A DNA stretch of 64,000 bases, taken from contig JASBTM010000017.1 of NCBI GenBank assembly GCA_030148425.1, positions 186,001-250,000 of the forward strand. Direction: 5' to 3'. This document shows positions 1,218 through 21,139 of the stretch, piece by piece (position 1 is the stretch's first letter; the number at the start of each line of letters is the position of its first letter). Under the pieces are notes generated by a model. The model made no database searches, was not told the origin of the DNA, and saw only the letters and a list, made by a program, of their open reading frames with translations. The position numbers were made by a program, and so were the translations under genes. Origin of the DNA: Hyphomicrobium sp. Lineage in GTDB: Bacteria > Pseudomonadota > Alphaproteobacteria > Rhizobiales > Hyphomicrobiaceae.

Positions 1218-3434
1218 TCATAGGCTGGTGATTGCGACTTCCGACTGAATATCTTTCAGCGCGTCGACAAGCACATCGATCTCGCCACACGTGTTGTAGA
1301 AGGCAAAAGAAGGGCGCACCGTCGTTTCCTGGCCGAACCGGCGCAGGATGGGCTGGGCGCAATGATGACCCGAGCGCACGGCGATCCCGTACTTGTTGAG
1401 ACGCGCACCTATTTCCTCGCTCGGAATGCCTTTGAGAGTCAGCGATATGACGCTCGCCTTCTCGGGTGCCGTTCCGATGATGCGCAAACCTGGAATTTCT
1501 CCCAGCCGCTTCGTGGCGTACACAAGCAGCTTGTGCTCGTAGTCTGCGATGTTCTGCAGTCCAATGCGCTCGACGTAGTCGATTGCAGCACCAAGCCCGA
1601 CGGCATCAGCAATGTTGCCCGTACCTGCTTCGAACCGTTGTGGCGATTTGTGGAATTCGATCCGCTCGAACGTCACATCGCGGATCATGTTGCCGCCGGT
1701 CTGATAAGGCGGCAACGAATCCATAAGGTCCTTCTTGCCGTAGAGGGCGCCGATACCGGTCGGAGCAAACAGTTTGTGACCGGAGAACACGAAGAAGTCC
1801 GCGTTGAGATCCTGTACGTCGACCTTCATGTGAGAAACGGACTGAGCGCCATCGACCAGCACGCGCGCGCCAACCCGATGCGCCATCTCGATGATGGCTT
1901 TCGCGGGCGTGATCGTGCCGAGCGCATTTGAGACTTGCGTAAAGGCCACGAGCTTCGTGCGAGCGTTCAGCAGCTTCCCGAATTCATCGAGCAGCAACGC
2001 ACCGCAATCATCGACCGGCGCGACACGGAGTTTCGCACCCTTCTCGAGACAAAGTTGCTGCCATGGCACGATGTTGGCATGATGCTCGAGGTGAGTAACG
2101 ACAATCTCGTCGCCCGGACCGATGTGCTGGCGACCAAACGTTGCCGCGACCAGATTGATGGCTTCCGTTGCGCCACGTGTGAAGATGATCTCTTCGGCCG
2201 ATCCTGCATTCAGAAATCGAGCGACTTTGTTTCGCGCTCCTTCATAGGCATCGGTGGCGCGTGCCGCGAGCTCATGCGCGGCACGATGAATATTCGAGTT
2301 TTCATGCTCGTAGAAATATTTGAGCCGCTCAATCACGGATCGCGGTTTCTGCGTCGTGGCCGCGTTGTCAAACCAGATCAGCGGTCGCCCATTCACAGTT
2401 TCATTCAAGATCGGGAAGTCGCGGCGCGCTGCGCCGACGTCGAAGCCGCGGCTATCCGAAGTGGCAGCCGGGGTTTTTGGAAGACTGCCATCGGAGGTAT
2501 TTGAGAAACCAGGCCCGCGCTCGAGAAAATAGAAACTCGAGCCGGCGTCTCCAATGAAGTTGCTGATCGGCTCGGCCGCCAGCGGAGCAAGCAACGTCCT
2601 GAGTTCCGCTTCGAACGGAATTCCGATCAGATCGGAATTTGAAACGGTGCCGCTCGAATGCGGCGTCTCGATGCCGGAGTGGTCGTTGAGAATCTGCGGC
2701 GGCGGTGTGGCTGCAGGCGCCTGCGGCGGCGACGAGCGTCCGACACCCGGAAGTGAATCTGCCAACCGTACCCCTTCTGGACGTGCCGGAATGTCTCTGG
2801 ATGCGCCGTGCCCCGAGAGCGACGGCCCTGCGTCGACACTCGACGGAAGCAATCCCGCAGGCGTCCCGAGCAGAGCGTTGATGACGCTCAGGTCGAGAGC
2901 GCGATCGCGTGAGCCGGGCGTATCATCCGAAGGCGCGATTGTCGCGGTTTCCAGCGTTCCACGTTCGCCGGGCAGGACAGCCGGTGAAGCATATCCTGCA
3001 TCGATATAAGGCGAACTGCCCAAGCCAGCGAGAGACGGGCCGGAAGGCGAGCCCGCCGGTAGCGACGGGATACCGCCGCCAAGCAGTCCGATCAGTACGC
3101 CCTGGTCAATCGATGAACCGCCAAATGGCGACGTTTGACTGAACCCGGTTGGAGACGTCGCGCCCGGCAATGAAGCAGGCGACGTCGCGGCCGCAACATG
3201 CGGAGCAGCGCTTCCGCTGACATCGGCTGGCGAAGCGCCGAATCCGCTCTGCGACGGACCCGCCGGGTATGGCACCGATTGGCCGGGAAGCGCCGCGAAC
3301 AATTCGTTCGCGAGCTTCGTCAGGCTGCTCGCGCTCGGCAAATCCGCAGGCGGCTTTACCGCCGCATCCTGTCCAAGCGCTGCGGCTGCGAGCCCGTCGA
3401 GGCTCGCATTACGTCCGATATCAGCTGTAGGCAT
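1218..3434 (-). CDS. Family 2A encapsulin cargo cysteine desulfurase with long disordered N-terminus
   Basis: This is a PLP-dependent cysteine desulfurase that converts cysteine to alanine plus enzyme-bound persulfide sulfur. Residues about 335-738 are a complete SufS/CsdA-type class V aminotransferase domain. It has the PLP lysine in FSGHKLF (Lys554) and the catalytic cysteine in RSGHHCAQP (Cys692). The first 335 residues are rich in Ala, Pro, Ser and Gly and are predicted disordered; ordinary SufS is about 410 residues and lacks them. Such extensions mark the cargo enzyme of family 2A encapsulins and carry short shell-docking motifs. Visible candidates are SLTKLANELFAALPG (37-51), two hydrophobic stretches around 109-128 and 180-199, and SSFYFLERG near Tyr302. 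A GPSxxGxGxS element recurs at residues 59, 132 and 203. The start overlaps the shell gene by 14 bases, which suggests coupled translation. Identity is firm; the docking role of individual motifs is inferred. Confidence 0.95.
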   Translation of the reverse strand: MPTADIGRNASLDGLAAAALGQDAAVKPPADLPSASSLTKLANELFAALPGQSVPYPAGPSQSGFGASPADVSGSAAPHVAAATSPASLPGATSPTGFSQTSPFGGSSIDQGVLIGLLGGGIPSLPAGSPSGPSLAGLGSSPYIDAGYASPAVLPGERGTLETATIAPSDDTPGSRDRALDLSVINALLGTPAGLLPSSVDAGPSLSGHGASRDIPARPEGVRLADSLPGVGRSSPPQAPAATPPPQILNDHSGIETPHSSGTVSNSDLIGIPFEAELRTLLAPLAAEPISNFIGDAGSSFYFLERGPGFSNTSDGSLPKTPAATSDSRGFDVGAARRDFPILNETVNGRPLIWFDNAATTQKPRSVIERLKYFYEHENSNIHRAAHELAARATDAYEGARNKVARFLNAGSAEEIIFTRGATEAINLVAATFGRQHIGPGDEIVVTHLEHHANIVPWQQLCLEKGAKLRVAPVDDCGALLLDEFGKLLNARTKLVAFTQVSNALGTITPAKAIIEMAHRVGARVLVDGAQSVSHMKVDVQDLNADFFVFSGHKLFAPTGIGALYGKKDLMDSLPPYQTGGNMIRDVTFERIEFHKSPQRFEAGTGNIADAVGLGAAIDYVERIGLQNIADYEHKLLVYATKRLGEIPGLRIIGTAPEKASVISLTLKGIPSEEIGARLNKYGIAVRSGHHCAQPILRRFGQETTVRPSFAFYNTCGEIDVLVDALKDIQSEVAITSL

Positions 3435-4332
3435 GATACTTGGTCACATCCACGTTCTCGAGCACGCCGACAGCATCGTCGGTCAGGATGGCGAGTGAGC
3501 AATAAAGCGACACGAGATAGGACGCGATCGCCTGATCGTTGATGCCCATGAAGCGAACGGACAGACCTCTGGACAGTTCTCCGGGAAGGCCCGGTTGAAA
3601 CAGTCCTACGACGCCCTGCTTCGCTTCGCCCGTGCGGATCAGCAGGATGTTGGTCTTGCCAGCCTTCACTTCGAGCTTGTCGGATGGAACGAGTGGAATT
3701 CCGCGCCACGTGAGGAACGGCGACCCAAACAGCGTGGTCGTTGGCGGGGGAACGCCACGCCGTGTGCATTCGCGTCCGAACGCAGCAATCGCCTGCGGGT
3801 GCGCGAGGAAGAAAGCCGGCTCCTTCCAGACTCTCGTGATTAGTTCGTCGAGGTCGTCGGGCGTCGGTGCGCCTGAGCGCGTCTTGACCTTCTGGGCGGC
3901 GGTGGCATTCGGAATGATGCCGTATTCTTTGTTGTTAAGGAGTTCGCTTTCCTGGCGCTCCTTCACCGTCTCGATCGTCAGCCGAAGCTGCTCTTTGATC
4001 TGATTATGCGGGATGCTGTAGAGATCGGATACGCGCGTGTGAATATCGAGAACGGTCTGAACCGCGCTCAGAAGGTATTCGCGCGGATTGTCGACGTAGT
4101 CGACGAACGTCTGCGGCAGGATGCGTTCATCGCGGAGCGAGCACGCGACTTCGACGCTGTCGGCGTCCTTGACTTTGTTTACGCGGTAGATGCCCGCCTC
4201 GACCGGAACCCAGCTCAAGAAATGTACGAGCCACCGCGGGGTAATGCTCGACATTTGGGGGACGGTTTTGGTCGCATTGGCTAATTGCCTAGCGGCGATA
4301 TCGCCCAAAGCAGTTTGAACTTCGTCTGCCAT
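3421..4332 (-). CDS. srpI: Family 2A encapsulin shell protein (SrpI type)
   Basis: This 303-residue shell protein has an HK97 phage-capsid fold and self-assembles into a proteinaceous nanocompartment in the cytoplasm. Its length matches SrpI of Synechococcus (about 300 residues). Recognisable family stretches are ITPRWLVHFLSWVPVEAGIYRVN near residues 30-52, the central IPNATAAQKVKTRSG...PDDLDELITRVWKEPAFFLAHP, and the C-terminal run around FQPGLPGELSRGLSVRF and YLVSLYCSLAIL. Family 2A shells are always found with a cysteine desulfurase, as here. Published work on this family links the compartment to sulfur starvation and to storage of elemental sulfur. It lies 94 bases after the serine acetyltransferase gene, in an AT-rich spacer with two inverted repeats. 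No portal, protease, terminase or tail genes are nearby, so this is a domesticated shell and not a prophage. Confidence 0.95.
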   Translation of the reverse strand: MADEVQTALGDIAARQLANATKTVPQMSSITPRWLVHFLSWVPVEAGIYRVNKVKDADSVEVACSLRDERILPQTFVDYVDNPREYLLSAVQTVLDIHTRVSDLYSIPHNQIKEQLRLTIETVKERQESELLNNKEYGIIPNATAAQKVKTRSGAPTPDDLDELITRVWKEPAFFLAHPQAIAAFGRECTRRGVPPPTTTLFGSPFLTWRGIPLVPSDKLEVKAGKTNILLIRTGEAKQGVVGLFQPGLPGELSRGLSVRFMGINDQAIASYLVSLYCSLAILTDDAVGVLENVDVTKYHAYS

Positions 4333-4358
4333 AGCCTACCTATCGTCTGCTAAATTAT

Positions 4359-4403
4359 AAGAATTGTATTCTTCATATATGCTTATCCGAGAAACAGATA
4401 AGC
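4359..4403 (-). promoter_or_regulatory. Two inverted repeats in the AT-rich epsC-encapsulin spacer
   Basis: In the 94-base spacer upstream of the shell gene there are two perfect inverted repeats. GCTTATC (4381-4387) pairs with GATAAGC (4397-4403) across 9 bases. AAGAAT (4359-4364) pairs with ATTCTT (4368-4373) across 3 bases. The spacer is conspicuously AT-rich for this genome. Either an internal promoter/operator for the shell-cargo pair or an mRNA structure setting expression relative to epsC would fit; the sequence does not decide between them. Confidence 0.45.
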
Positions 4404-4426
4404 GGGTCAACGACGTTATATTGGAA

Positions 4427-5401
4427 TTAGATACCGGCGCCGTGATCGAAGGTTTCGCTGCGCGGCTGCGCCTGCACAATCACGCTCTCGGGCGAGACGC
4501 TGCGTGTGAGCCAGACGTTTCCGCCGATCGAGGAGCCGCGTCCGATGGTGATGCGTCCGAGAATCGTGGCGCCTGCATAAATGACGACGTCATCTTCAAC
4601 GATCGGATGGCGGGGTTCGCCTTTAACTAGCGCGCCCTGCTCATCGACAGAGAAACGTTTCGCGCCAAGCGTCACTGCTTGATAGATGCGGACGCGCTCG
4701 CCGATGATGACCGTTTCGCCGATCACGACACCCGTTCCATGATCGATGAAAAAGCTGCCGCCGATCCGCGCGCCGGGATGAATGTCGATGCCTGTCTGCG
4801 AATGCGCGAGTTCGGCAATGATCCGGGCGACGACGGGCGCTCCCAAAGTATTCAGGACGTGCGCTATCCTGTGATAGATGATCGCTTTCACGCCTGGAAA
4901 ACTGAGAAGCACTTCCTCGGTACTTCGTGCCGAAGGATCGCCGTCGTAAGCCGCGCGAACATCGCTTTCCAGAAGCTCGTAGATTTTGGGAAGCTTTCCG
5001 GCGAATTCGGCGACAATCGTTTCAGCCGGCCGACGGATGGACGTATTGCCCTGGCGCGAGCTGTCTACGAAACCATGTTCGCGCCTGATCTGCTCGACCA
5101 ACAACGTCAATGCTTCGTTCAAAGTACTGCCGACGAAGAAGGCCAGACCTTCCTCGCTGTGATCGACCGCCCCTGCGTGGCGCGGAAAAAGCGACGCGTA
5201 GAGCCTGCTGACCACCTGTTGAAGCAATTCAGGAGACGGAATAGGCGTTCGACGGTTGCCTGCCGACGAAACGCGAACGCTTCGGCGGCGGGCATCGCGC
5301 AGATCTGATACGATAGCCTCGATATCCCAAGGGGGTGTGATGCGTTCATCGAAGCTAAGGTCGCTCTCGATGTCGGCAGTGAAGTCGTTGGACACTGTCA
5401 T
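4427..5401 (-). CDS. epsC: Serine O-acetyltransferase, EpsC/CysE type
   Basis: It acetylates L-serine with acetyl-CoA to give O-acetylserine, the carbon acceptor for sulfide in cysteine synthesis. The C-terminal half is a left-handed beta-helix of hexapeptide repeats with the catalytic Asp220-His221 pair in FIDHGTGVVIGE and HPGARIGG just before it. The N-terminal 170 residues are the helical serine acetyltransferase domain, longer than in CysE of E. coli and typical of the EpsC branch. The ATG at 5401 was chosen, 31 bases after the stop of the sulfate-binding gene. A TTG at 5479 would add 26 residues but overlaps that gene. Serine acetyltransferases are a recognised accessory gene of family 2A encapsulin loci. 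No targeting extension like that of the desulfurase is visible, so it is probably outside the shell or attached to its surface. Confidence 0.93.
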   Translation of the reverse strand: MTVSNDFTADIESDLSFDERITPPWDIEAIVSDLRDARRRSVRVSSAGNRRTPIPSPELLQQVVSRLYASLFPRHAGAVDHSEEGLAFFVGSTLNEALTLLVEQIRREHGFVDSSRQGNTSIRRPAETIVAEFAGKLPKIYELLESDVRAAYDGDPSARSTEEVLLSFPGVKAIIYHRIAHVLNTLGAPVVARIIAELAHSQTGIDIHPGARIGGSFFIDHGTGVVIGETVIIGERVRIYQAVTLGAKRFSVDEQGALVKGEPRHPIVEDDVVIYAGATILGRITIGRGSSIGGNVWLTRSVSPESVIVQAQPRSETFDHGAGI

Positions 5402-5432
5402 TCCGCTATTACACGCCAATGCTGCTGCGACA

Positions 5433-6437
5433 TTAATTTTGCTTCGTGGTGATCTGATCGTAGACACCGCCGTCTGCAAAATGGGTCTTCTGAACCTCCG
5501 CCCACGGCCCGATCTTGTCTTCCACCGTGAACGTGCGGATCTCCGGTAGGTGCGCCTCTTTCAGGATTTCAGCGTTCTGAGGCCGGAAGTGATGTTTCGC
5601 GATGATTTTCTGAGCTTCATCGGAATAGAGAAAATCGAGGTACGCCTTGGCGAGCTTTTCGGTTTTCCGCTTCGCGACAATCGTTTCGACTATGGCGACG
5701 GGAGGCGCCGCTTCGATGCTGAGCGACGGATAGACGATATCGAAATTCCCGCCATCTACTTCTGCCTTGATGAGGGCGGCTTCGTTCTCGAACGATACGA
5801 GTACGTCGCCGATGCCGCGCTGCGTGAATGTTGTCGTCGCGCCGCGTCCACCACCGTCGAACACCGGCACATTCGCAAACAGCTTGGCGACGAAGTCGCG
5901 CGCTTTATCGTCGGAACCGAGCTTCTCTTTCGCATAGCCCCACGCAGCCAGGTACGTGTAGCGGCCGTTGCCCGACGTCTTCGGATTCGGAATGACGACC
6001 GAGACGCCCTGCTTAATCAAGTCATCCCAATCCTTGATGCCTTTGGGATTGCCCTTTCTGACCAGAAAGACGCTTGTCGTCGTATAGGGGGAAGCGTTAT
6101 TGGGAAACTGTTTCTTCCAGTCGCTGCTTACCGCGCCTTTCTTAGCCAGGAAGTCCAAGTCAGTGGGCTGATTGAGCGTGACGACGTCGGCTTCGAGTCC
6201 CTCGGCGACAGCCTGTGCCTGCTTTGTAGATCCACCGTGCGACTGCTTTACAGTCACGTCCTCGCCTGACGATTTTTTCCATGCCGCCGAGAACGCCGGA
6301 TCGATATCCTTATAAAGTTCCCGCGAAACGTCGTAGGAAGCATTAAGGAGAGTCGTTTGGGCGAAAGCCGTCACGGACTCTAGAGAGATAAGAGCCAGAG
6401 CAAGACCGAGGCTAGTGGCAACTCGTCGACGGACCAT
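5433..6437 (-). CDS. sbp: Sulfate/thiosulfate ABC transporter periplasmic binding protein
   Basis: This is the periplasmic receptor for sulfate or thiosulfate uptake. Signature stretches are LLNASYDVSRELYKDIDPAF directly after the signal peptide, VKQSHGGSTKQAQAV (anion-contacting loop) and EADVVTLNQPTDLDFL. The start at 6437 was chosen because GGGGAAAG sits 6 bases upstream and it gives a clean signal peptide (MVRRRVATSLGLALALI, cleavage after AFAQ near residue 26). Starts up to 6500 would only lengthen the N-terminus. It is the first gene of the encapsulin operon and divergent from the cysB-like gene. The matching permease and ATPase genes (cysT, cysW, cysA) are not in the window, so it must work with components encoded elsewhere. 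Confidence 0.92.
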   Translation of the reverse strand: MVRRRVATSLGLALALISLESVTAFAQTTLLNASYDVSRELYKDIDPAFSAAWKKSSGEDVTVKQSHGGSTKQAQAVAEGLEADVVTLNQPTDLDFLAKKGAVSSDWKKQFPNNASPYTTTSVFLVRKGNPKGIKDWDDLIKQGVSVVIPNPKTSGNGRYTYLAAWGYAKEKLGSDDKARDFVAKLFANVPVFDGGGRGATTTFTQRGIGDVLVSFENEAALIKAEVDGGNFDIVYPSLSIEAAPPVAIVETIVAKRKTEKLAKAYLDFLYSDEAQKIIAKHHFRPQNAEILKEAHLPEIRTFTVEDKIGPWAEVQKTHFADGGVYDQITTKQN

Positions 6438-6662
6438 ATGAACTTTCCCCATTTGACGTCCCATGCATACCTGTTGTTTCAAACCTGTCCGGCCTACCAA
6501 ACCAATAAAAAATCACAAGCTTAGACGTCCGCTCTTTCTGCTAAGAGCTGGTATGCATAAGCAAAGAGGAATTTGTCCATTAGCGCCTCCGCTAGCGCAG
6601 ATGGTGATCTGCTATGTAAGACGTCTAACCTCGTCAGCCGCGAAGTCAGAGGCCTTTAACGT
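6438..6662. promoter_or_regulatory. Divergent sbp/cysB control region with two interleaved 9-bp inverted repeats
   Basis: This 225-base region must hold the promoters of the encapsulin operon (minus) and the CysB-like regulator (plus). Two perfect 9-bp inverted repeats interleave. ATGCATACC (6463-6471) pairs with GGTATGCAT (6550-6558), and TTAGACGTC (6521-6529) pairs with GACGTCTAA (6620-6628). A third GACGTC lies at 6455-6460. Widely spaced symmetric sites are typical of LysR-type regulators, which bind as tetramers and bend DNA. Assignment to the adjacent regulator is an inference. Confidence 0.55.
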
Positions 6663-7595
6663 ATGAACTTTCAACAACTCCGGATCATTAGGGAAACTGT
6701 ACGGCACCGCTTCAATCTGACGGAAGCTGCAAATGTTCTTTTCACCTCGCAATCCGGCGTCAGTAAGCATATCCGCGATCTCGAAGAAGAACTCGGCGTC
6801 GAAATCTTCGTCCGCCACGGCAAGCGCCTTCTCGGATTGACAGAGCCGGGCAAGGAAGTTTTCAAGATCGTCGAAAGAATGCTCGTCGATGCCGAAAATC
6901 TTTCGCGCGTCGTTGCGGATTTTTCGGAGGGAAATGACGGGCTGCTTCGTATCGCTACGACGCATACGCAAGCGCGCTATACGCTGCCCCCCGTTATCGC
7001 CCGCTTCAAAGAGACCTTTCCAAATGTCCGTCTGAATCTGCAACAGGCGAGCCCGAAGGACCTGCCAACGGTTCTACTCGCGGGTGACGCGGATATCGCA
7101 ATCGCCACCGATACCCTCGACCACCATCCGGGACTGATCGCGTTTCCCTATCACACTTGGGACCACGCCGTGGTCGTTCCGCGCGGTCATCCGCTGACGA
7201 AGGAAAAGGCGTTATCGCTCGCGAACGTTGCGGAGTGGCCGATCATTACCTATGACGACGGCTTGACCGGACGACAGCGGATCGATCAAGCCTTCGAGGC
7301 GGCGGGTCTCAGCCCCGACATCTCCATAACAGCTCTCGACGCAGACGTTATCAAAGCCTACGCCGAGCTTGGTATGGGGGTAGGCATCATCGCTTCCGTC
7401 GCCTACGATCGCGAGCACGATAGAAAGCTCGTGAAGCTCAATGCGCCGCATCTTTTCGAACCGAGCACATCGAGCATCGCGGTACGTCGCGGACGCCTAC
7501 TTCGCCGCTATGCGTATCGCTTCATCGAGCACTGCAATCCTGAAATTACCGAGGGGGTTATACGGTCAGCCGACGACGGGGGAGACGAAATCTAG
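6663..7595 (+). CDS. cysB: CysB-type LysR regulator of sulfur assimilation
   Basis: A LysR-type transcriptional regulator of 310 residues. The N-terminal winged helix-turn-helix (residues 1-60) reads LTEAANVLFTSQSGVSKHIRDLE. The effector domain starts with the CysB/Cbl signature TTHTQARYTLPPVI, which binds N-acetylserine, O-acetylserine, thiosulfate or sulfate in known members. It is transcribed divergently from the sulfate-binding/serine-acetyltransferase/encapsulin/desulfurase operon. Activation of that operon under sulfur limitation is therefore the likely role. O-acetylserine made by the adjacent EpsC is a known CysB-family inducer precursor, so a feedback loop is plausible. CysB and Cbl cannot be separated by eye. 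Confidence 0.92.
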   Translation: MNFQQLRIIRETVRHRFNLTEAANVLFTSQSGVSKHIRDLEEELGVEIFVRHGKRLLGLTEPGKEVFKIVERMLVDAENLSRVVADFSEGNDGLLRIATTHTQARYTLPPVIARFKETFPNVRLNLQQASPKDLPTVLLAGDADIAIATDTLDHHPGLIAFPYHTWDHAVVVPRGHPLTKEKALSLANVAEWPIITYDDGLTGRQRIDQAFEAAGLSPDISITALDADVIKAYAELGMGVGIIASVAYDREHDRKLVKLNAPHLFEPSTSSIAVRRGRLLRRYAYRFIEHCNPEITEGVIRSADDGGDEI

Positions 7596-7606: not shown

Positions 7607-9004
7607 CTATTCCGATGCCGCTCGGAGGCTTCGCGGTGAGCGGCCCGTCTCGGACGATTGCGTCAGTTGCTCGGCGAGCCGCGCGCACTGCGTGCGGATA
7701 TCGGGAATGCCGGTTATTTCCCAGAATGCACCGCGGGTCAGTGGTCCAATCGCAAATATATCTGTTGCGCGCTTCCCGTTCCGGTCGATAAGGGCCGACG
7801 CAGCATCGACATCGAGCCCCAGCCCCAGACGATCTGGGCGTGCAAGTCCTTGGTCGACGAGACTGCGAACGAGCGGGTTTTCTGCTTTCGAGACGTCGAT
7901 ACTGAAACCGGTGCAATCCGTAATGCCTTGGACATCGAGCGTTTCGATTTCGTGTTTGCCTCGTCGACGGTACTGAACTTCAATGCTGCCAGGCTTTTGG
8001 TCTCGCGGAGTGATCGAGACGATTTTCGAAGGAATGACGACGAGACGCCCACTTGCAACGAGATCGCCAATCGCTGCCGCAACTTTTGGGGCCATGCGGT
8101 GGCGCCGCACATCCCACCAGGGTCGGGCGTGCCGCACAAATCGCGATTGATCAGCAGGCGAAAGCGACTGCCAAAGCTCTTGCACGAAAGGGCGCAGCCC
8201 ATCGAGGACCGCGCGCCAATCCGATCCTTGTCCCTCGGCGTCTCTCACTCGCTCACGGAACCATTTAAGAAGCCTCGAAAGGCTCTGGCCAAAAGGAATC
8301 TCGCCTTTCGCGATTTCCGCGGCTTCGAAGGGTCGATGCGCTTGTGGCAGGAGCCCACGGCGCGAGATGGCGATGATCTTACCTTGATAGCCCGCGGCGA
8401 TAAGAGATTGCACATGATCTATCGTGGAAAGGCCGGTTCCGAGAAGCAGGATGTTTTCGGTGTCGCCGAGTATTTTGCGATCAATGCTGAGCCACGGGGT
8501 AAGAGTCGAGGATAAGCCCGATAGCGCCGGAGATTCGTAGCCCGTGGCGATGACGGCGACATCGCCAATGATCCGTCGAAAATTATCGAGCGTAACGCGG
8601 ATGCCGCTCGGAGTTCGGGATATTGCGACCGCCTCGCCGCGAATGTGCGTCAGCCGCGTTGTAGCGGCGCCATGCTCGTGCAATTGGCTCGTCAAATAAT
8701 TGCCGAACGCGAGCCGCGAGGCAAATCGGAAGCCGACGTCCTCGCTACCGTCATGTTTTCCGTCGTTCTCGCTAAGCCAGGCCGCGAAGTGATCCCGCAG
8801 ATCCGGATAGGCGCTCATGTTGGCGGCCCGAACATTCAGGAGATGAATCGGATGCGCCGATCCATAAGCGACACCCTTACCGAATGTATCAGAACGCTCA
8901 ATGAGGGTAACGTGCGTGGTCGTATCGGCGCGTAGAATTTGGATGGCGAGCAAGGTACCGCTCGCGCCGCCGCCCAAGATCAAGATGTTGCGTGCGCTCG
9001 CCAA
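7607..9004 (-). CDS. FAD/NAD(P)-binding oxidoreductase (YdhS-like)
   Basis: A 465-residue flavoprotein of the FAD-NAD(P)-binding type (YdhS-like). The N-terminus has the dinucleotide-binding ILGGGASGTLLAIQIL followed by ERSDTFGKGVAYGSAHPIHLLNVRA. A second nucleotide-binding stretch is LLGTGLSTIDHV. It is the last gene of the ssuD-ssuC-ssuB run, 21 bases after ssuB, so a role in sulfonate use is likely. It could serve as an electron-transfer or monooxygenase component, but the reaction is unknown. No SsuE-type NADPH:FMN reductase gene is present in the window, and whether this protein replaces it is only a guess. Confidence 0.8.
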   Translation of the reverse strand: MASARNILILGGGASGTLLAIQILRADTTTHVTLIERSDTFGKGVAYGSAHPIHLLNVRAANMSAYPDLRDHFAAWLSENDGKHDGSEDVGFRFASRLAFGNYLTSQLHEHGAATTRLTHIRGEAVAISRTPSGIRVTLDNFRRIIGDVAVIATGYESPALSGLSSTLTPWLSIDRKILGDTENILLLGTGLSTIDHVQSLIAAGYQGKIIAISRRGLLPQAHRPFEAAEIAKGEIPFGQSLSRLLKWFRERVRDAEGQGSDWRAVLDGLRPFVQELWQSLSPADQSRFVRHARPWWDVRRHRMAPKVAAAIGDLVASGRLVVIPSKIVSITPRDQKPGSIEVQYRRRGKHEIETLDVQGITDCTGFSIDVSKAENPLVRSLVDQGLARPDRLGLGLDVDAASALIDRNGKRATDIFAIGPLTRGAFWEITGIPDIRTQCARLAEQLTQSSETGRSPRSLRAASE

Positions 9005-9025
9005 GCGGATATTCCAATCTTCGGC

Positions 9026-9823
9026 TTAAACCTCGCGAAGGATACGTTCCTGAAGCGCAGCGAGATCGCGATCCGTGCGCTGGCGAGGCCGGTCTGCGGA
9101 AACATCAACATCAAACGCGACGCGGCCATCCCTCATGACGACGACTCTGTCGGCCAGTGCCACCGCTTCGGCGACGTCGTGCGTTATCAAAATCGTTGTG
9201 AAGCGCTCACGGAGCCAGAGCTTTTCGAGAAGCACGTGCATGTCTGCGCGTGTCAGTGCATCGAGTGCACCGAAGGGCTCATCGAGAAGCAGGACATTCG
9301 GTTCCCCAACGAGAACGCGGGCCAGGGCAACCCGCTGGCGTTGTCCGCCCGAAAGAACCGCCGGCCATTCGCCGTGACGCTCTGCGAGCCCCACGTCGCG
9401 GAGCGCTGTCATCGCCGCCTCGCGCCAGCCCGGCGTGCGTGCAATTCCGACGTTGCTCAAAACCGTCTGCCACGGCAGCAAACGTGCGTCCTGAAAGAGT
9501 AGCTTCACCGACTTCTGCAAGCCGCGCACGGGATTGCCGTCAATCGAGACTGTTCCGCTCGTCGGCTTGTCGAGGCCGACAATCAAGCGCATCAAACTCG
9601 ACTTGCCCACGCCTGAGCGGCCGACAATAGCGACGAACTGGCCAGCCGGAACGGTGAGGTTCAAATCGCGCAAGACCGCGCGCTCTCCGAAGGACAGATG
9701 GAGATGGTCGAGCGCAAGCTCCTTGCCTTTGGCGCGTACATTGCCGTCGGTCGAGGGGAGCCCCCGTCCAATACTTGTTTTCGCGACCGGTATGCGGTCA
9801 GCGCTGCTCAATCGTTTCAACAT
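9026..9823 (-). CDS. ssuB: Aliphatic sulfonate ABC transporter ATP-binding protein
   Basis: The cytoplasmic ATPase of a nitrate/sulfonate/taurine-class importer. Visible motifs are Walker A GRSGVGKSS (about residues 69-76), the Q-loop FQDARLLPW, signature LSGGQRQR, Walker B VLLLDEPFGALD and the switch histidine in ILITHDVAEA. The start at 9823 (ATG, 265 residues) avoids overlap with ssuC. An upstream in-frame start at 9904 would overlap it by 59 bases and add 27 non-conserved residues. Residues 1-33 before the ABC domain are longer than in E. coli SsuB and basic. Adjacent ssuC and ssuD fix the substrate class as sulfonates. Confidence 0.92.
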   Translation of the reverse strand: MLKRLSSADRIPVAKTSIGRGLPSTDGNVRAKGKELALDHLHLSFGERAVLRDLNLTVPAGQFVAIVGRSGVGKSSLMRLIVGLDKPTSGTVSIDGNPVRGLQKSVKLLFQDARLLPWQTVLSNVGIARTPGWREAAMTALRDVGLAERHGEWPAVLSGGQRQRVALARVLVGEPNVLLLDEPFGALDALTRADMHVLLEKLWLRERFTTILITHDVAEAVALADRVVVMRDGRVAFDVDVSADRPRQRTDRDLAALQERILREV

Positions 9824-9845
9824 GATCGAATGCCAGAGCCCGGTT

Positions 9846-10643
9846 TCAACGAGAGACGGAGCCGGCGTGATACGCCGGATGCCACGCAAGAACGCGGTTC
9901 TCAATCAGTTTTGTGGCGGTGTCTGCTGCCTTCCCGAGGATTGCATAGACGAGAATTCCTAAGACCACGACATCGGTCTGCAGAAACTCGCGTGCGTTCA
10001 TCGTCATGTAGCCAATGCCCGATGACGCAGAGATCGTCTCCGCAACGATAAGCGTCAGCCACATGATGCCGAGAGCATAACGAAGGCCGACCAGCACCGA
10101 GGGCATGGCGCCGGGAAGCAAGACGCGCCAGAAGATCGCGAATTTCCCCAAACCATTCACTTCGGCCATTTCGATAAGCCCGCGATCAATCGTGCGTATC
10201 CCGTGATAGGTATTGAGGTAGACGGGAAAGAGGGTGCCCACAGCGACGAGGAAAATCTTCGCGGTTTCGTCGATGCCAAACCAAAGGATCACCATGGGAA
10301 TGATCGCGAGATGGGGAACATTGCGCAGCATCTGAAGCCCGGAATCGAGCAGGAGTTCCGCGCGCCGCGAGACGCCCGTCAAAATGCCGAGAACGAATCC
10401 GAGGCCGCCCCCAATTGCGAGACCGATGATCGCGCGCTCGAAACTGATCAGGACATTGCGCCCGAGTTCACCGCTTTTGGCGCTCTCCCAAAACGCGACG
10501 GCGACCTGACTCGGCGCTGGAAGCGTTCGCGCTTCGATGAAGCCCGTGCGGGCGCCGAGTTCCCATATGAGCAAGAGCCCGACGGGCACGAACCATGGCG
10601 CAGCGCGTTCGACGGCGCTCCGAAATGAAAGCGACTGGCTCAT
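9846..10643 (-). CDS. ssuC: Aliphatic sulfonate ABC transporter permease
   Basis: The inner-membrane permease of the sulfonate importer, 265 residues with about six hydrophobic segments (for example [15 protein letters not shown] and [17 protein letters not shown]). The ABC-facing EAA loop lies in [20 protein letters not shown]. The start codon overlaps the ssuD stop by 4 bases (ATGA), which indicates translational coupling. Confidence 0.93.
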
Positions 10644-11812
10644 GATTGCCCTCGCTGGCGTTCCGCCGGAGCGAAATCGTTAGCGACTGTTTCTCCGATT
10701 GGGCCGCCCCTTCTGAAGCGGATGCCGGGCGTATTCTGCGCGAGAGGAAGCAACGGAAAGACAAGCTCGGCGAAGCGATAGGCTTCCTCCAAATGCGGGT
10801 AGCCGGAGAAGATGAAGGTATCTATGCCGATACGCATATATTCCCTGATGCGCTCGGCGACTGTTTCCGCGTCGCCGACGAGGGCCGTTCCGGCACCCCC
10901 GCGCACGAGACCGACACCAGCCCAGAGATTCGGGCTGATTTCGAGCTTGTCGCGGCGACCGCCGTGAAGTGCCAGCATGCGCTTCTGACCGACGGAATCC
11001 ATGCGCTCGAAGGTCTTCTGCGCCGACGCGAGCGTAGCATCGTCGAGGTGTTTCAGAAGTTCGTCGGCGGCGTGCCAGGCTTCCTCATTCGTCTCGCGAA
11101 CGATGACGTGCAGACGAATGCCGAACGTGAAGCTCCGGCCGCGCGCATTGGCAACTTTCTGTGCCGCTTCGAGCTTTTTCGCGACTTCGCCCGGCGGTTC
11201 ACCCCAAGTGAGATATTTGTCGATGGTCTCGGCGGCAACAGCGATGCCCGCGTCGGATGATCCCCCAAAGTAGAGGGGCGGGTGCGGCTTTTGCAGCGGC
11301 GGAAACAGCAGCCGCCCATCTTCTATTTTTATATGACGACCTTCATAGTCGACGCGGCCTCCTGCCAGAAGCGCCTTATAGACGTCGAGAAATTCCTTCG
11401 TGACCGCATAGCGTTCGTCATGCGCCAGAAAGATGCCATCGCCTTTGTTCTCGACCGGATCGCCGCCAGTCACGACATTGATCATCAGTCGCCCGTCGGA
11501 AATTCGGTCGAGTGTCGCGGTCATTCGCGCCGCAACCGCAGGTGACAACAGCCCGGGACGAACAGCCACCAGAAAACGAAGATCCCGAGTTTGCGGCAAC
11601 AGAGCGGACGCAATCACCCACGAATCTTCGCAGCTTCGGCCCGTCGGCAGCAATACGCCGTAGTAGCCGAGCTTGTCGGAGGCTTCCGCAACCTGGCGAA
11701 GATAACTGAGATCTACGTCCCGCCCGCCGATTGAGGATCCGAGATACCTCCCGTCTCCATGCGTCGGCAGAAACCAAAGAACGTTTGCGGTTGTTGCAGG
11801 CGCAATTTTCAC
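10640..11812 (-). CDS. ssuD: FMNH2-dependent alkanesulfonate monooxygenase
   Basis: It cleaves C1-C14 alkanesulfonates to aldehydes and sulfite using FMNH2 and O2. It has the bacterial-luciferase-like TIM barrel. Landmarks are [16 protein letters not shown] at the start, [35 protein letters not shown] and [11 protein letters not shown]. The GTG at 11812 was chosen because homology begins at [14 protein letters not shown], giving 390 residues against 381 in E. coli. A GTG at 11944 would add 44 Arg/Ala-rich residues with no family counterpart. The gene is divergent from ssuA across about 257 bases, which must contain both promoters. Confidence 0.93.
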
Positions 11813-12069
11813 GGACAGGATATTCCCAATGATGCTCGTACTCGCCGCTATCGGCAGTCGACGTCGGATACGCCAAGCAGTTTGCCCGCCGCGCGTCGCG
11901 TGGGCCGCTGATGTCCGCAATGCTGGACGAACGGCTGCTCCCACACAAACAAGAAAAACCGATTAGCTTTTCTGTTTTTGATATTGGTCTTCCCCTGGGA
12001 CCGCGCCGATTACTGAGGTGCTCTGCGGGATTGCAAGCAGTTCGAGCATCAAACCTAAAGGCTTCGTCC

Positions 12070-13047
12070 ATGGATCGTCGTCGTTTTGTCGAGCGCGGGC
12101 TCGCCCTCGGAATTTTGTTGATCGCTACTGCCGGCGTTGCTGCAGCGGCCGACGGCCCTGCCACCGTGCGCATCGGCTTTCAAAAATCGTCGACGCTTAT
12201 AAATATTCTCAAGGCGAACGGTCAGCTCGAGAAAGATCTTGCTGGTCTCGGCGTCTCGGTGAAATGGTCGGAATTCTCGAGCGGCTTACCGCTGCTTGAA
12301 GCGCTGAACGTCGGAGCCATCGACCTATCCGGCGACGTCGCCGATACTGTACCCATTTTTGCGCAGGCAGCCGGAGCCAAGCTCACTTATGTTGCCGCCG
12401 AGGCGCCGTCTCCCACAGCTCAAGCACTTCTCGTTCCGGAAAGCTCGTCTATTCGTTCGATCGCCGACCTTAAGGGCAAGAAGGTCGCGGTCACCAAGGC
12501 GGCCGGGAGTCATTATCTTCTGATCGCCGCTCTGTCTCAGGCCGGACTGACGTTCAAAGATATTCAGCCGGCTTATTTGACACCGGCTGACGGCCGCGCG
12601 GCCTTCGAGAAAGGCGCTGTCGACGCTTGGGTCACTTGGGATCCTTTTGTCGCCGCCGTGCAGAAACAATCCGCCGTGCGCGTTCTGGCCGACGGGACGG
12701 GAATCGCGAACTATCAGCGCTACTATCTCGCCTCTTCGAGTTTTGCGGCTTCACGGCCGGATGTGCTGAAGCTCGTCTTCGCGAAGCTCAAGGAAACCGG
12801 CGAGTGGGTGAAGAAGAATCCCGAGGCGGCTGCTCAAATCCTAGCTCCTGCGTGGGGATTGGATGCCGCGGTTGTTTCGCTCGCAAATAGTCGCCGTAGC
12901 TATATTGTTCGCCCGATAACGCCGGACAACATTGCCGACGAACAAAAGATCGCCGATGCATTCTTCAGTGTTGGCGCATTGCCAAAGCCAATCAACATTG
13001 GCGATGCGCAGAGCTGGTCTCCTGACAAGCAGGCATCCACCCAATAA
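12070..13047 (+). CDS. ssuA: Aliphatic sulfonate-binding protein
   Basis: The periplasmic receptor of the sulfonate importer, 325 residues. A signal peptide (MDRRRFVERGLALGILLIA, cleavage near AAAA at residues 24-27) precedes TVRIGFQKSSTLINILKANG, the usual SsuA opening. YVAAEAPSPTAQALLVP, DLKGKKVAVTKAAGSHYLL and GAVDAWVTWDPFVAAVQ are also family stretches. AAAGG lies 9 bases before the ATG at 12070, which decides this start over longer ones. It is transcribed away from ssuDCB and followed by a classical terminator. Confidence 0.92.
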   Translation: MDRRRFVERGLALGILLIATAGVAAAADGPATVRIGFQKSSTLINILKANGQLEKDLAGLGVSVKWSEFSSGLPLLEALNVGAIDLSGDVADTVPIFAQAAGAKLTYVAAEAPSPTAQALLVPESSSIRSIADLKGKKVAVTKAAGSHYLLIAALSQAGLTFKDIQPAYLTPADGRAAFEKGAVDAWVTWDPFVAAVQKQSAVRVLADGTGIANYQRYYLASSSFAASRPDVLKLVFAKLKETGEWVKKNPEAAAQILAPAWGLDAAVVSLANSRRSYIVRPITPDNIADEQKIADAFFSVGALPKPINIGDAQSWSPDKQASTQ

Positions 13048-16977: not shown

Positions 16978-17234
16978 TAGACTCTACAGATTTAGTAGAC
17001 TATTGAGATGCGACGCTTTCGTTGGCTTCTCATGAAGTGGTCAGCGCGTCCGTGAAAGTGCCGTTTCGACTGCGCCGAAAAAAGCCAGTCTGCACGTCAT
17101 GGATGCTTCCGATCGGTCTGGGCTCAGCGACATGCAAGCAAAGAAAAGACACGCGGCGCTTCCGGGGATGGTTCGCGCGTACACCAAAGTGGCGGGGACG
17201 CCGAGTCTATCTCGATAGGGGAAACCAGCATCAT

Positions 17235-18617
17235 ATGGCGATAAGTGATTCACCTGTTCTTTATCAGCGCGCAGCACAGCGGAATGGCTTCATAGGCGCA
17301 GCGCTTGGTTGGATGTTCGACGGTTACGAAACGTTCGCGACAGTTCTCGTCGCGCCGGCGATCGTCAATCAATTGATCGGCCCCGGGACGGCGCAAGCGC
17401 AACCGATTTATGTCGGAGGCATACTTGCGACGACGTTGATCGCGTGGGGATTGGGTGGCCTCTTATCCGGCGTCCTTGCGGATTATATCGGAAGACGTCG
17501 CGTTCTGATGTATTCGATCCTTTGGTATTCGATCTTTGCAGGCGCCGCGGCCTTCTCCCAAAACTACGCCATCTTTCTCGTTCTCCGTTTCCTGACGGGT
17601 GTTGGCATGGGAGCGGAATGGGGAGCGGGTAGCTCGCTTGTTTCCGAAACCTGGAACGACCGAAACCGCGGCAAAGGTATTGCTTTGCTTCAGGGTAGCT
17701 TCGGCGTCGGCTTTCTCATAGCGGCCGGTGCGTGGCAGGTATTTAACCACGGTTCGCCGGACGATTGGCGTTGGATGTATATTCTTGGCGCCGCTCCGGC
17801 CCTTGTGTCCCTGTTCGTCAGGCGACGCGTCAAAGATCCTGACATCTGGATCGCAGCCGACAGAAAGCGCCGCGATGTTCGAACGCGCGTCCGAAATGGT
17901 GAAGTGGTAGGCGCCAAGGAACGACAGCTTACGAAATCCACGCTTGCCCAATTGTTCCAGACTCCTGAGCTTCGGCGTCGTCTCATCCTGCTCTTCCTTG
18001 CGGCATTGAGCACGACGATGGGCTGGTGGGCCGTGTCGAGCTGGATTCCGCTTTTCTCCGCTCAACAGCTGGCGGGCAAGGTGCAGAGCGTGCCGACCGC
18101 GGTCACGACCGTCGTCGTTGCGTACAATGTCGTTGGGTTGGCCGGTTACTTTCTGATGGGTGTGCTGGCCGACTGGCTCGGCCGCAAGCCTGCGATGATG
18201 ATCTACTTTGCCGGATCTCTCGTCGTCGTTCCGCTTCTCTTCCTCACCCCGGCATCCCCATCGCTCTTTATTGCGCTCGCTGCGATCAATGGGTTCTTCA
18301 CGATGGGACAATGGACGTGGGTCGCGCTCTATCCGGCTGAACTCTTTCCGACGCAGGTGCGCGCCACCGCGATCACGTTCGTGTTCAACACAACACGCTT
18401 CGTCGTCGCAGCCGGGACATTGCTTAGCGCTGCGGCGATCCACTTCTTCGGAAGCATCAGTATTGCGGCGACGGTTCTTGGCTCCGGCTACATCATCGGC
18501 TTGCTTGTCACGCCGTGGATCGGGCCGGAGACCAAAGGACTGCCGCTTCCCGGCGCCGAAATACCGCCCGATGAGTCTTGGAGCCCCCTCGAAGCCGTAG
18601 CCGCAGGACACAAATGA
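17235..18617 (+). CDS. MFS transporter, metabolite:H+ symporter type
   Basis: A 460-residue 12-helix major facilitator. It opens with GWMFDGYETFATVLVAP, carries motif A in GVLADYIGRRRVLM and again in GVLADWLGRKPAMM, and has the RFLTGVGMGAEWGAG helix typical of the aromatic acid/sugar symporter groups. The ATG at 17235 was chosen (AGGGGA upstream) because the in-frame 71 codons before it are Arg-rich and lack membrane character. It leads an operon with two flavin monooxygenases, the next starting directly after its stop. It probably imports their sulfur- or nitrogen-containing substrate, an inference from linkage. Confidence 0.85.
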   Translation: MAISDSPVLYQRAAQRNGFIGAALGWMFDGYETFATVLVAPAIVNQLIGPGTAQAQPIYVGGILATTLIAWGLGGLLSGVLADYIGRRRVLMYSILWYSIFAGAAAFSQNYAIFLVLRFLTGVGMGAEWGAGSSLVSETWNDRNRGKGIALLQGSFGVGFLIAAGAWQVFNHGSPDDWRWMYILGAAPALVSLFVRRRVKDPDIWIAADRKRRDVRTRVRNGEVVGAKERQLTKSTLAQLFQTPELRRRLILLFLAALSTTMGWWAVSSWIPLFSAQQLAGKVQSVPTAVTTVVVAYNVVGLAGYFLMGVLADWLGRKPAMMIYFAGSLVVVPLLFLTPASPSLFIALAAINGFFTMGQWTWVALYPAELFPTQVRATAITFVFNTTRFVVAAGTLLSAAAIHFFGSISIAATVLGSGYIIGLLVTPWIGPETKGLPLPGAEIPPDESWSPLEAVAAGHK

Positions 18618-19799
18618 ATGTCGCATACATTGGAAAAAATCCGGCTGCACCAGGCCCAATCGCCTTTGGACTATCCGGAGAGCCCGCTGTCGCGGATCGC
18701 GGCGCAACCGATGATGATCGGCCTTTTTCTGCCGACGCAGACGGGAGGATTTTCGCAATCGAAGCTTCCAAGGGAAACGCAGTGGAACTTCGACTATAAC
18801 AAGCACCTAACGTTAACCGCCGAGAGCTACGGCTTCGATTTCGTCTTCGGTCTTCAGCAATGGGTGCAGAAGGGTGGCTTCGGCGGCGAGATAAAATATC
18901 GCGAGAATTTTCTCGATCCCTTTATCTCTACGGTAGCGATCGGCGCGCTTACCAAGAGCATCGTGACGATTTCGACCGTCCATATTCTTTATGGAAGTCT
19001 ACACCCGCTCTATCTCGCGCGTTTCGCAGCCACAGCGGATCACATCACCGGCGGACGGTTCGGTCTCAACATCGTCACTGGGTATGACGCAAAAGAGCCG
19101 CTGATGTTCGGCATGAATCGCGTCGACCACGATAAGCGCTACCAGCAGGCGGATGAGTTCACGTCGATCATGGAAGACTTATGGGTGGGAGAAGAAAATC
19201 TCACCTATGACGGGGACTACTATCATCTCGATGGTGCGTATATCTCGCCCCGGCCGCGCTATGGACGCCCGATACTCGTTTCCGCTAGCGCATCTCCGGC
19301 GGGCTTCGACTATGCCGCCCGTCACGCCGACATCGTATTCACGTCGAGCCCAGCCGGCGCCGTCTTCGAGAACGCGATTGCTGCGCTGCCCGCGCACGTC
19401 CAGCAAATCAAACAGGCCTACGCGAAGACGGGTCGGACTGGAAAGACCATCATCTTTCCCTTGATCGTCTGCAAGAAGACTCGCGAGGAAGCATATGCCT
19501 ATCGCGATGCCATCGTTGCTCAAGCCGATCTCGAGTCCATCGCAGCTTATACCAACCGGCATGCGAAAGGCGATGCGCAGGGCTGGCCGAAGCACGTACC
19601 GGCCGATCGTGTTCTAGGCGGGCACATCCAGATTGTCGGCGATCCGAACGACGTTGCCGATGCGATAACGCAGCTTCATGAAGCGGGCTTGGATGGCATT
19701 CAGATCGGCTTCTACGACTACGGCCCGGACCTGGACTTCTTCGCCGAGGCGGTCCTTCCGATTCTTGAAAAGCGCGGTTTGAGAAAGCCACGATCATGA
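18618..19799 (+). CDS. LLM-class FMN-dependent monooxygenase (RutA/SfnG-like)
   Basis: A luciferase-like flavin monooxygenase of 393 residues. Family features are MMIGLFLPTQTGG at the barrel start, FDYNKHLTLTAESYGFDFVF, ATADHITGGRFGLNIVTGYD and RPILVSASASPAGFDYAARH. The pattern is closer to RutA (pyrimidine) and SfnG (dimethylsulfone) than to SsuD. Reduced FMN must come from a reductase not seen nearby. It starts at the base after the MFS stop and overlaps the next gene by 4 bases (19796-19799). With the DmoA/NtaA-type enzyme that follows, a two-step oxidation of an organosulfur or similar compound is plausible; the substrate is not determinable. Confidence 0.82.
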   Translation: MSHTLEKIRLHQAQSPLDYPESPLSRIAAQPMMIGLFLPTQTGGFSQSKLPRETQWNFDYNKHLTLTAESYGFDFVFGLQQWVQKGGFGGEIKYRENFLDPFISTVAIGALTKSIVTISTVHILYGSLHPLYLARFAATADHITGGRFGLNIVTGYDAKEPLMFGMNRVDHDKRYQQADEFTSIMEDLWVGEENLTYDGDYYHLDGAYISPRPRYGRPILVSASASPAGFDYAARHADIVFTSSPAGAVFENAIAALPAHVQQIKQAYAKTGRTGKTIIFPLIVCKKTREEAYAYRDAIVAQADLESIAAYTNRHAKGDAQGWPKHVPADRVLGGHIQIVGDPNDVADAITQLHEAGLDGIQIGFYDYGPDLDFFAEAVLPILEKRGLRKPRS

Positions 19800-21139
19800 G
19801 TTCCGATATCATTCTCAATGCCACGATCATGGGCCTCGGCATGCACCTCGGTGCGTGGCGGCATCGATCCGGAAGCCCTTCGGACTATCTCGACATCAAC
19901 TACTATCGCGAGGTTGCGCAGCTAGCGGAATCCGGCCGGCTGCACGCACTTTTCCTGGCGGATACGCTCGCCGTCAGTGAAGAGAACTTTGAGCGGCCGA
20001 ATCTCGGCGCCATGGATCCCACAGCGGTTCTTGGCGCACTTGCGGCAGTGACAAGCCGGATCGGTCTTGTGGCAACGGCATCGACGTCCTTCAACGAACC
20101 CTTCAACCTCGCGCGCCGCATTGCCTCACTCGATCATCTGAGTCGCGGGCGAGCGGCATGGAACATCGTGACGACGTTCATACCGGATGTCGCTGCGAAC
20201 TTCGGAAAGGGTCCGTTGCCGCCGCACGCGGAGCGTTACGCCAAGGCCGAAGAATTTGTCGATGTCGTCACGGAGCTTTGGGATTCCTGGGACGAGGACG
20301 CGCTTGTCGGCAATAAAGCCTCAGGTCTTTTTGCCGACCGGAGCCGTGTGAATGCGGTAAATCACGATGGCCGCTTCTTCTCGGTGCGCGGCCCTAACAC
20401 TCTACCGCGTTCGCCTCAAGGTCGGCCCATCCTATATCAAGCTGGTTCTTCCGAGGAGGGGCGCGCTCTTGCCGCCCGCACAGCAGACGTCGTATTCGCC
20501 GTGCAAAATACTTTGGCAAGTGCGATCGCTTTTCGAAAGGATTTACGCGATCGCGCTGCGCGGGAGGGACGAGATCCAGACAGCCTAAAAATCCTGCCCG
20601 GCCTTGTACCAATTATCGGCGGTACAGAGCGCGAAGCTCAAGACCGAAAGAGCGCGCTTGACGATCTTGCGGGCGACGCGGAACTCAGGAAACTGGCGTC
20701 GCGCGTCGGTGTGCCAGCGTCGGATCTTTCGTTGGACAAGCCGCTGCCCATAGATCGGATCAAAGCCAACGACAAATTCAATGCGTCTCGCGGCTTTCAG
20801 GCCGCCGCCATCCAACTTGGCGCTTCAGAAAATCTCACCGTGCGCGAAATCCTTTATCGCAACGGCGGCGGCCATCCTCAGGTCGTCGGCACACCGGAGC
20901 AAGTCGCCGATTTCATCGAGAGCTGGCACCGTGCCGGAGCCGCTGACGGCTTCAACCTGATGATTGACGAACTTCCCTCGGGACTTCGCGCATTCGTCGA
21001 TGAAGTGGTGCCGTTGCTGCAGCGACGCGGTGTTTTTCAAAGCGATTACCGCGGTGATACGCTGCGTTCGAACCTTGGACTGAGAAATCCTCATGATTCG
21101 CTACGAAACTACGAGCAGCGTCGCTCGCATTACGCTTGA
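19796..21139 (+). CDS. NtaA/SnaA/DmoA-family FMN-dependent monooxygenase
   Basis: A 447-residue monooxygenase of the NtaA/SnaA/DszA group, which includes the large subunit of dimethylsulfide monooxygenase (DmoA) from Hyphomicrobium. It has the opening GLGMHLGAWRHRSG, the YREVAQLAESGRLHALFLAD helix, GRAAWNIVTT and RPILYQAGSSEEGRALAARTAD, all family hallmarks. Oxidation of a C-S or C-N bond with FMNH2 and O2 is expected. Its last 47 bases overlap the enoyl-CoA hydratase-like gene in another frame, so the operon is tightly coupled. Given the sulfur genes around it, an organosulfur substrate is favoured but not proved. Confidence 0.85.
   Translation: MSSDIILNATIMGLGMHLGAWRHRSGSPSDYLDINYYREVAQLAESGRLHALFLADTLAVSEENFERPNLGAMDPTAVLGALAAVTSRIGLVATASTSFNEPFNLARRIASLDHLSRGRAAWNIVTTFIPDVAANFGKGPLPPHAERYAKAEEFVDVVTELWDSWDEDALVGNKASGLFADRSRVNAVNHDGRFFSVRGPNTLPRSPQGRPILYQAGSSEEGRALAARTADVVFAVQNTLASAIAFRKDLRDRAAREGRDPDSLKILPGLVPIIGGTEREAQDRKSALDDLAGDAELRKLASRVGVPASDLSLDKPLPIDRIKANDKFNASRGFQAAAIQLGASENLTVREILYRNGGGHPQVVGTPEQVADFIESWHRAGAADGFNLMIDELPSGLRAFVDEVVPLLQRRGVFQSDYRGDTLRSNLGLRNPHDSLRNYEQRRSHYA

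Follow-up and report, generated by a model that had tools for sequence, protein, structure and literature searches.

A family 2A encapsulin operon of Hyphomicrobium, with a CysP-type receptor gene and a promoter box of a putative sulfur regulon

The 64,000-nucleotide stretch of Hyphomicrobium sp. DNA analysed here (assembly GCA_030148425.1, contig JASBTM010000017.1, positions 186,001–250,000; hereafter the window) carries a family 2A encapsulin locus, and the question it raises is how such a cage may be supplied with sulfur and under what control its genes are expressed. The initial annotation had described a minus-strand run of genes for a sulfate receptor, a serine acetyltransferase (SAT), an encapsulin shell and a cysteine desulfurase (CyD), with a divergent cysB-like gene beside it, and the table of open reading frames (ORFs) confirms all five genes at these positions and on these strands. 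The core shell–cargo system is already published. What appears to be newly noted is the co-inheritance of a CysP-type receptor with the shell, a promoter box shared with other sulfur genes, and an isoleucine tail on the SAT; no earlier account of the three was met in the open-licence literature, supplements not covered. Judging from the sequence data, we lean towards an operon of the SrpI/CyD kind that lies within a sulfur-limitation regulon and would feed cysteine to a sulfur-holding cage.

The 303-residue shell protein (3421–4332, minus strand) was confirmed as a family 2A encapsulin by the curated model NF041162 encap_f2a (533 bits; cut-off, 380). It also matches the Pfam SrpI-like family (PF19307; 354 bits) and, over residues 5–302, the solved SrpI of Synechococcus elongatus PCC 7942 (Nichols et al. 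2021, PMC8049743; PDB 6x8m; 517 bits), with which it aligns at full length. The family 2B model is likewise over its cut-off (436 bits against 400), and since its best match begins only at model position 210 of 450, the shell is without the cNMP part of family 2B. A phage capsid was considered as an alternative and ruled out by the curated 2A model matches. The neighbouring CyD gene (1218–3434, minus strand; 738 aa) encodes a SufS-type cysteine desulfurase with both the catalytic HHC and the pyridoxal phosphate lysine motif, and its proposed role as cargo is borne out by model NF041166 (849.5 bits; cut-off, 800). The low-complexity extension, previously given as 335 residues, measures 336 residues up to the R.DFP landmark, with 64% A/S/G/P/L, compared with 225 residues in the N-terminus of the S. 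elongatus CyD; it may be a loading domain that looks disordered, with disorder judged by composition alone. It carries LANELF and SSFYFLERG, the counterparts of the motifs LARLANEFFS and AASPYYFLDG published for S. elongatus. According to passages of PMC8049743, sulfate deprivation raises SrpI and CyD, loading depends on the CyD N-terminus, and encapsulation makes CyD about sevenfold more active. The window locus is adjoined by a CysP-type receptor and a CysB-family regulator; the comparison with S. elongatus covers shell and cargo.

For comparison, 100 family 2A loci were assembled from 26 loci of relatives (window included) and 80 named loci (the best 80 of 567 confirmed), minus 6 duplicates; the nearest named relatives of the window among them belong to Hyphomicrobium. 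Searched with loose patterns, the N-termini of 96 cargo loci gave motif 1 in 53 cases and motif 2 in 71, with 41 having the two together; in shuffled N-termini the rates were 1.9% and 0.1%. By these counts, the motifs are far above chance, yet not universal. The catalytic HHC is present in 94 of the 96 cargo genes, 81 by the first pattern used and 13 as RTGHHC; loss of the catalytic cysteine in some relatives was therefore rejected as the meaning of the 15 genes missed by the first pattern, the remaining two (L051 and L095) being cut short. The end of the shell gene overlaps the start of CyD by 14 nt (3421–3434), so that the cargo start codon lies within the last codons of the shell. Of the 96 loci, 92 have an in-frame cargo ATG that overlaps the end of the shell gene, and 69 have it at the offset seen here (−13). 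This conserved overlap suggests translational coupling of shell and cargo.

The evidence for common regulation comes from the region between the operon and the divergent regulator gene. Aligned with its counterparts in relatives, the DNA upstream of the operon shows a common block at 6498–6524 of the window (minus strand; CTAAGCTTGTGATTTTTTATTGGTTTG), outside which the alignment is poor. Degenerate copies of this box precede sbp1 and cysT in the same genome, as well as ssuD. The first box model had encapsulin-operon heads as its training set, and it served in turn to locate the sites on which the second was trained, which makes the approach partly circular; for this reason, the search was repeated de novo with a Gibbs sampler (best of 12 runs) on 12 same-family sbp1 promoters from shell-less genomes, out of 20 fetched, the 8 from other families being left unused. 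At a matrix width of 24, picked with the earlier box known, the sampler gave the consensus ATAAGCTCAGCAGTTCTTCTTGGT. On both strands of the window, the best match of the de novo matrix lies upstream of ssuD (11948–11971; 20.7 bits), within the minus-strand box at 11945–11971 that heads the ssuDCB operon, the second-best at the encapsulin-operon head (6501–6524; 15.9 bits), and the sixth-best is a weaker plus-strand copy in the cysB-facing part of the intergenic region (6557–6580).

The box was scored in the window and in the fetched loci. Of 25 relative loci, 14 have their best match to the de novo matrix upstream of the encapsulin operon's cysP or SAT gene, and in a further 7 such a match ranks in the top three (at a low score of 8.0 in L119); in L124 it ranks lower, and none is present in L126, L127 and L130. 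With the earlier matrix, 16 of the 25 operon heads carry the box at p < 0.01, and in 4 more (L118, L122–L124) it stands before the SAT gene; these p-values are optimistic, as the random-window background of the first two models is mostly coding, a bias which ranks over whole loci avoid. Column-permuted matrices placed their top two matches in both promoters in 6 of 400 cases for the earlier matrix and in 3 of 600 for the de novo one. With the earlier matrix, 4.5% of the permuted versions scored at least as high as the real best match at some place in the window, and the top permuted score of the de novo test (22.3) exceeded the real one (20.7), so it is the position of the box, and not its score, that is telling. 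A scan for consensus promoters and terminators was uninformative, with 3 promoter-like and 6 terminator-like sites where 3.5 and 9.1 were expected. The divergent gene (6663–7595, plus strand) encodes a LysR-type regulator of the CysB/Cbl family (NF009327, 422 bits; cut-off, 402), which stays under the cut-offs of the CysB and Cbl equivalog models. A promoter box common to sbp1, cysT and ssuD agrees with the earlier proposal of sulfur-dependent control and supports assignment of the operon to a predicted sulfur regulon, and we infer that the divergent CysB-like protein may read the box. As separate observations, in L112 (position 3801) and L113 (13697) a CysK-like gene close to the encapsulin operon has the best box match of the locus directly before it, and in locus L137 of the same genome a strong copy (12201–12227; 36.6 bits) precedes a gene for an XRE/cupin-like regulator (12276–12935, identified by eye), just upstream of cysTWA.

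The first gene of the operon (5433–6437, minus strand) had been called sbp. Its assignment to a sulfur-oxyanion receptor holds (TIGR00971, 427 bits), whereas the Sbp name does not, since the binding-site residues are of CysP type. At the sites equivalent to residues 132, 173 and 192 of 1sbp, which we take to have a role in sulfate binding, the window receptor has N/G/F, as does Escherichia coli CysP, and the second receptor of the genome (Sbp1, contig C7) has G/A/W, as does E. coli Sbp. The other 82 non-reference receptors divide into 46 with N/G/F and 36 with G/A/W, and there are no intermediates. A quick tree built from 86 receptors has a split (99% SH-aLRT) that parts the two residue types, with E. 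coli CysP, a very long branch, on the side of the window receptor. Because the receptor has CysP-type residues, thiosulfate appears to be no less likely than sulfate as its ligand. The receptor start is probably at about ATG 6437 and that of the SAT at ATG 5401, both by homology (relatives of the SAT align from about residue 26–30); the ORF table, which takes the first possible start, has 5433–6500 and 4427–5479, respectively.

The distribution of the receptor was examined in 150 related genomes, the Hyphomicrobium genome itself included, 26 of which carry the shell. Receptors with at least 59% identity to that of the window were called CysP-type (site residues read in 30 of 33). A SufB DNA tree was built for 62 of the 150 genomes, comprising every carrier of shell or CysP; the 88 omitted have neither. 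On this tree, which is of one gene and has 22 weak branches among 59 inner ones, a CysP-type receptor is present in all 26 shell genomes and in 7 of the 36 shell-less ones. Shell presence gave 10 independent contrasts; CysP changed in the same direction in 7–8 of them, in the opposite direction in none, and was unchanged in 2–3 (p 0.008–0.016). The control, Sbp1, is present in every one of the 26 shell genomes and in 19 of the 36 without a shell, and follows the shell in about 3 of 10 contrasts, which is not significant. The SAT is present in 21 of the 26 shell genomes and in none of the 36 others; a shell-less genome outside the tree (G123) has one at 51% identity.

The SAT itself (4427–5401, minus strand) was rightly annotated as EpsC-type (NF041874, 157.8 bits; cut-off, 150). 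Its C-terminus reads FDHGAGI, compared with FEYGDGI in E. coli CysE, the terminal isoleucine of which anchors in the active site of CysK, the same tail also serving cysteine feedback (passages of PMC9547175). The operon SAT resembles the CysE of the E. coli CysE–CysK complex in its tail and differs in being EpsC-type and in having CysK encoded on another contig. A CysE-like tail predicted to dock on CysK is suggested by this likeness, and a regulatory role is also possible, by analogy, because the CysE tail serves feedback too. An isoleucine end was found in 41 of 83 shell-linked SATs, including all 22 of the Hyphomicrobium group (window, L107–L126 and L030), and is therefore a lineage feature and not family-wide. 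It occurs in none of 8 SAT/CysE proteins of other loci; the genome's own CysE ends in FGGL.

The operon had also been proposed to be a self-contained module, and this did not hold up, as it is without a permease or a cysteine synthase and the genes that would complement it lie on other contigs. Contig C7 has a cluster of sbp1, cysT, cysW, cysA and a second cysB (cysB1); the names cysT, cysW, cysA and cysB were given there by reading and similarity, and no search was made for a second cysTWA copy. Compared with the E. coli CysP/CysTWA system, the receptor shares its site residues, whereas it sits in an encapsulin operon without the permease. CysE is encoded on contig C14, a CysK-like protein on contig C15, and a SUF operon with a separate SufS on contig C5. 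Hence, CyD was rejected as the only SufS of the genome, and the operon SAT as its only SAT. The assembly is 85.85% complete, so absences from the genome are weak evidence.

The linked receptor and regulator had been said to go beyond the usual shell–cargo description. Within the fetched flanks of the 100 family 2A loci, some of which are short, 96 have CyD, 83 SAT, 51 a sulfate/thiosulfate receptor, 32 cysT, cysW and cysA together, 59 any sulfate-transport gene, 30 a CysB-like gene and 5 ssuD. Linkage with sulfate transport is not peculiar to the window locus, and the claim of its being unusual was not upheld. The set is skewed to near relatives of the query (34 Betaproteobacteria and 22 Gammaproteobacteria among the 74 non-relative loci) and is not a census. 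Methylotrophs are frequent among the nearest named loci (Methylococcaceae, 17, and Methylophilaceae, 15, of the 74 non-relative ones), in a similarity-picked set where enrichment is not shown. Among 1281 family 2A cysteine desulfurase operons, SAT and rhodanese were the most enriched accessories according to passages of Andreas and Giessen (2021, PMC8346489); the window operon shares the SAT, no rhodanese was identified in it, and those passages, supplements not covered, mention neither a sulfate/thiosulfate receptor nor a LysR regulator. Nor was a report linking encapsulins with sulfate transport or thiosulfate met in the open-licence literature, supplements not covered (such neighbours may appear in supplementary file 2 of Nichols et al.). 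A cysteine synthase lies near the shell in 12 of the 26 relative loci, 7 being CysK-like by sequence and 5 of the PRK10717 kind. The idea that cysteine synthase is special to encapsulin loci was rejected, the PRK10717 kind being commonplace across the order (117 of 150 genomes).

Taken as a working model, the favoured reading would run as follows. Under sulfur limitation, a CysB-type regulator at the box would activate the operon along with the genes that scavenge sulfate and sulfonates. CysP would hand its ligand, thiosulfate or sulfate, to the CysTWA permease, whose genes lie on another contig, and the extra SAT would make O-acetylserine and dock by its isoleucine tail on CysK encoded elsewhere, giving more cysteine. 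Cysteine would then enter the shell, where CyD, loaded via its N-terminus, would yield alanine and sulfane sulfur, which the cage may keep for later use. A more far-reaching version, which we put forward very tentatively, would make the Hyphomicrobiaceae 2A cage the storage end of an inducible circuit, with thiosulfate entering via CysP and sulfonates via SsuDCB, one CysB-type regulator and box in control, and the SAT tail recruiting CysK so that cysteine is fed to the cage; uptake, cysteine synthesis and caging would then behave as a single regulon, unlinked genes included.

Several observations weigh against such a model. The operon itself contains neither a permease nor a cysteine synthase, and profile scans of its proteins identified no rhodanese or other sulfur acceptor. 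Five shell genomes are without the SAT, and at the shell heads of their SAT-less loci the earlier matrix found the box in 0 of 5; in four genomes of genus g8 it marks the cysP genes and not the SAT-less shell heads. The box scores low in L119. CysP tracks Sbp1 as well, with agreement in about 4 of 5 contrasts, which is not significant. Path lengths on the receptor tree place the window receptor closer to E. coli Sbp (1.77) and to its own genome's Sbp1 (1.66) than to E. coli CysP (2.96). The sequence data, moreover, would be compatible with delivery of sulfur as well as with its storage.

The co-inheritance of CysP and shell could reflect physical linkage and an older sulfate-transport neighbourhood instead of joint function. 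CysP lies inside the fetched shell flank in 15 of the 26 shell genomes, and all 7 shell-less carriers, themselves a point against the favoured model, have it within 10 kb of Sbp1, in keeping with such linkage. The other 11 shell genomes, however, keep a CysP that was not found beside the shell (two of them, G048 and G085, with contig ends close), and of 8 tested cysP genes that are clearly unlinked, 6 carry the box at p < 0.01 (G001, G014, G015, G018, G020 and G025; G003, 0.02; G041, 0.06). One named carrier of SAT, shell and CyD, Hyphomicrobium facile DSM 1565 (locus L027, from the same contig as that of G001), has its cysP on a different contig from these genes. We regard linkage as an unlikely explanation, though one that keeps some weight.

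Equally to be weighed is what the cage is for and what fills it. Delivery in place of storage, in which the caged desulfurase gives persulfide sulfur to Fe–S or cofactor acceptors under sulfur stress and the neighbouring genes only supply cysteine, agrees with the SufS-like cargo domain, and passages of Nichols et al. can be cited in its support. It is nevertheless rendered doubtful by the separate SUF operon with its own SufS, and by the operon having no identified acceptor gene. Storage of elemental sulfur, which also speaks against delivery, has reportedly been claimed by Benisch et al. in 2024. As for the source, the receptor might serve mainly for thiosulfate, and the cage be filled from reduced inorganic sulfur and not from sulfate. 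This accords with the N/G/F residues that it shares with E. coli CysP, annotated as thiosulfate/sulfate binding, but E. coli Sbp is annotated for both ions as well, the NCBIfam Sbp and CysP models are both over cut-off for the window receptor, and three residues cannot give ligand preference; we consider a cage fed mainly by thiosulfate improbable.

Past the cysB-like gene lies a sulfonate cluster with ssuB, ssuC and ssuD (7607–11944, minus strand) and a divergent ssuA (11911–13047, plus strand). The cluster ends with the gene for an unassigned FAD/NAD(P)-binding protein (7607–9004), and L110 and L128 have similar ones close to their ssu genes. Among the window proteins scanned, none resembled the flavin reductase SsuE. 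Further on, at 17022–21794 (plus strand), genes for an MFS transporter, two flavin-dependent monooxygenases and a crotonase-family protein are found. The first monooxygenase is SfnG-like, below cut-off, and the second belongs to the NtaA/DmoA family, over cut-off; the group may possibly be another organosulfur scavenging set. A PQQ-type quinoprotein related to methanol/ethanol dehydrogenases is encoded at 22676–24304 (minus strand; 375 bits against a curated cut-off of 480), which also resembles the 'acido-empty-quinoprotein' group.

Family 2A cages are widespread, and their loading and timing have been studied in few organisms. The promoter box, the co-inherited receptor and the predicted docking tail would provide three handles on how a cage is filled. 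If the favoured model is true, sulfur caging would be part of the ordinary sulfur-limitation response in these bacteria.

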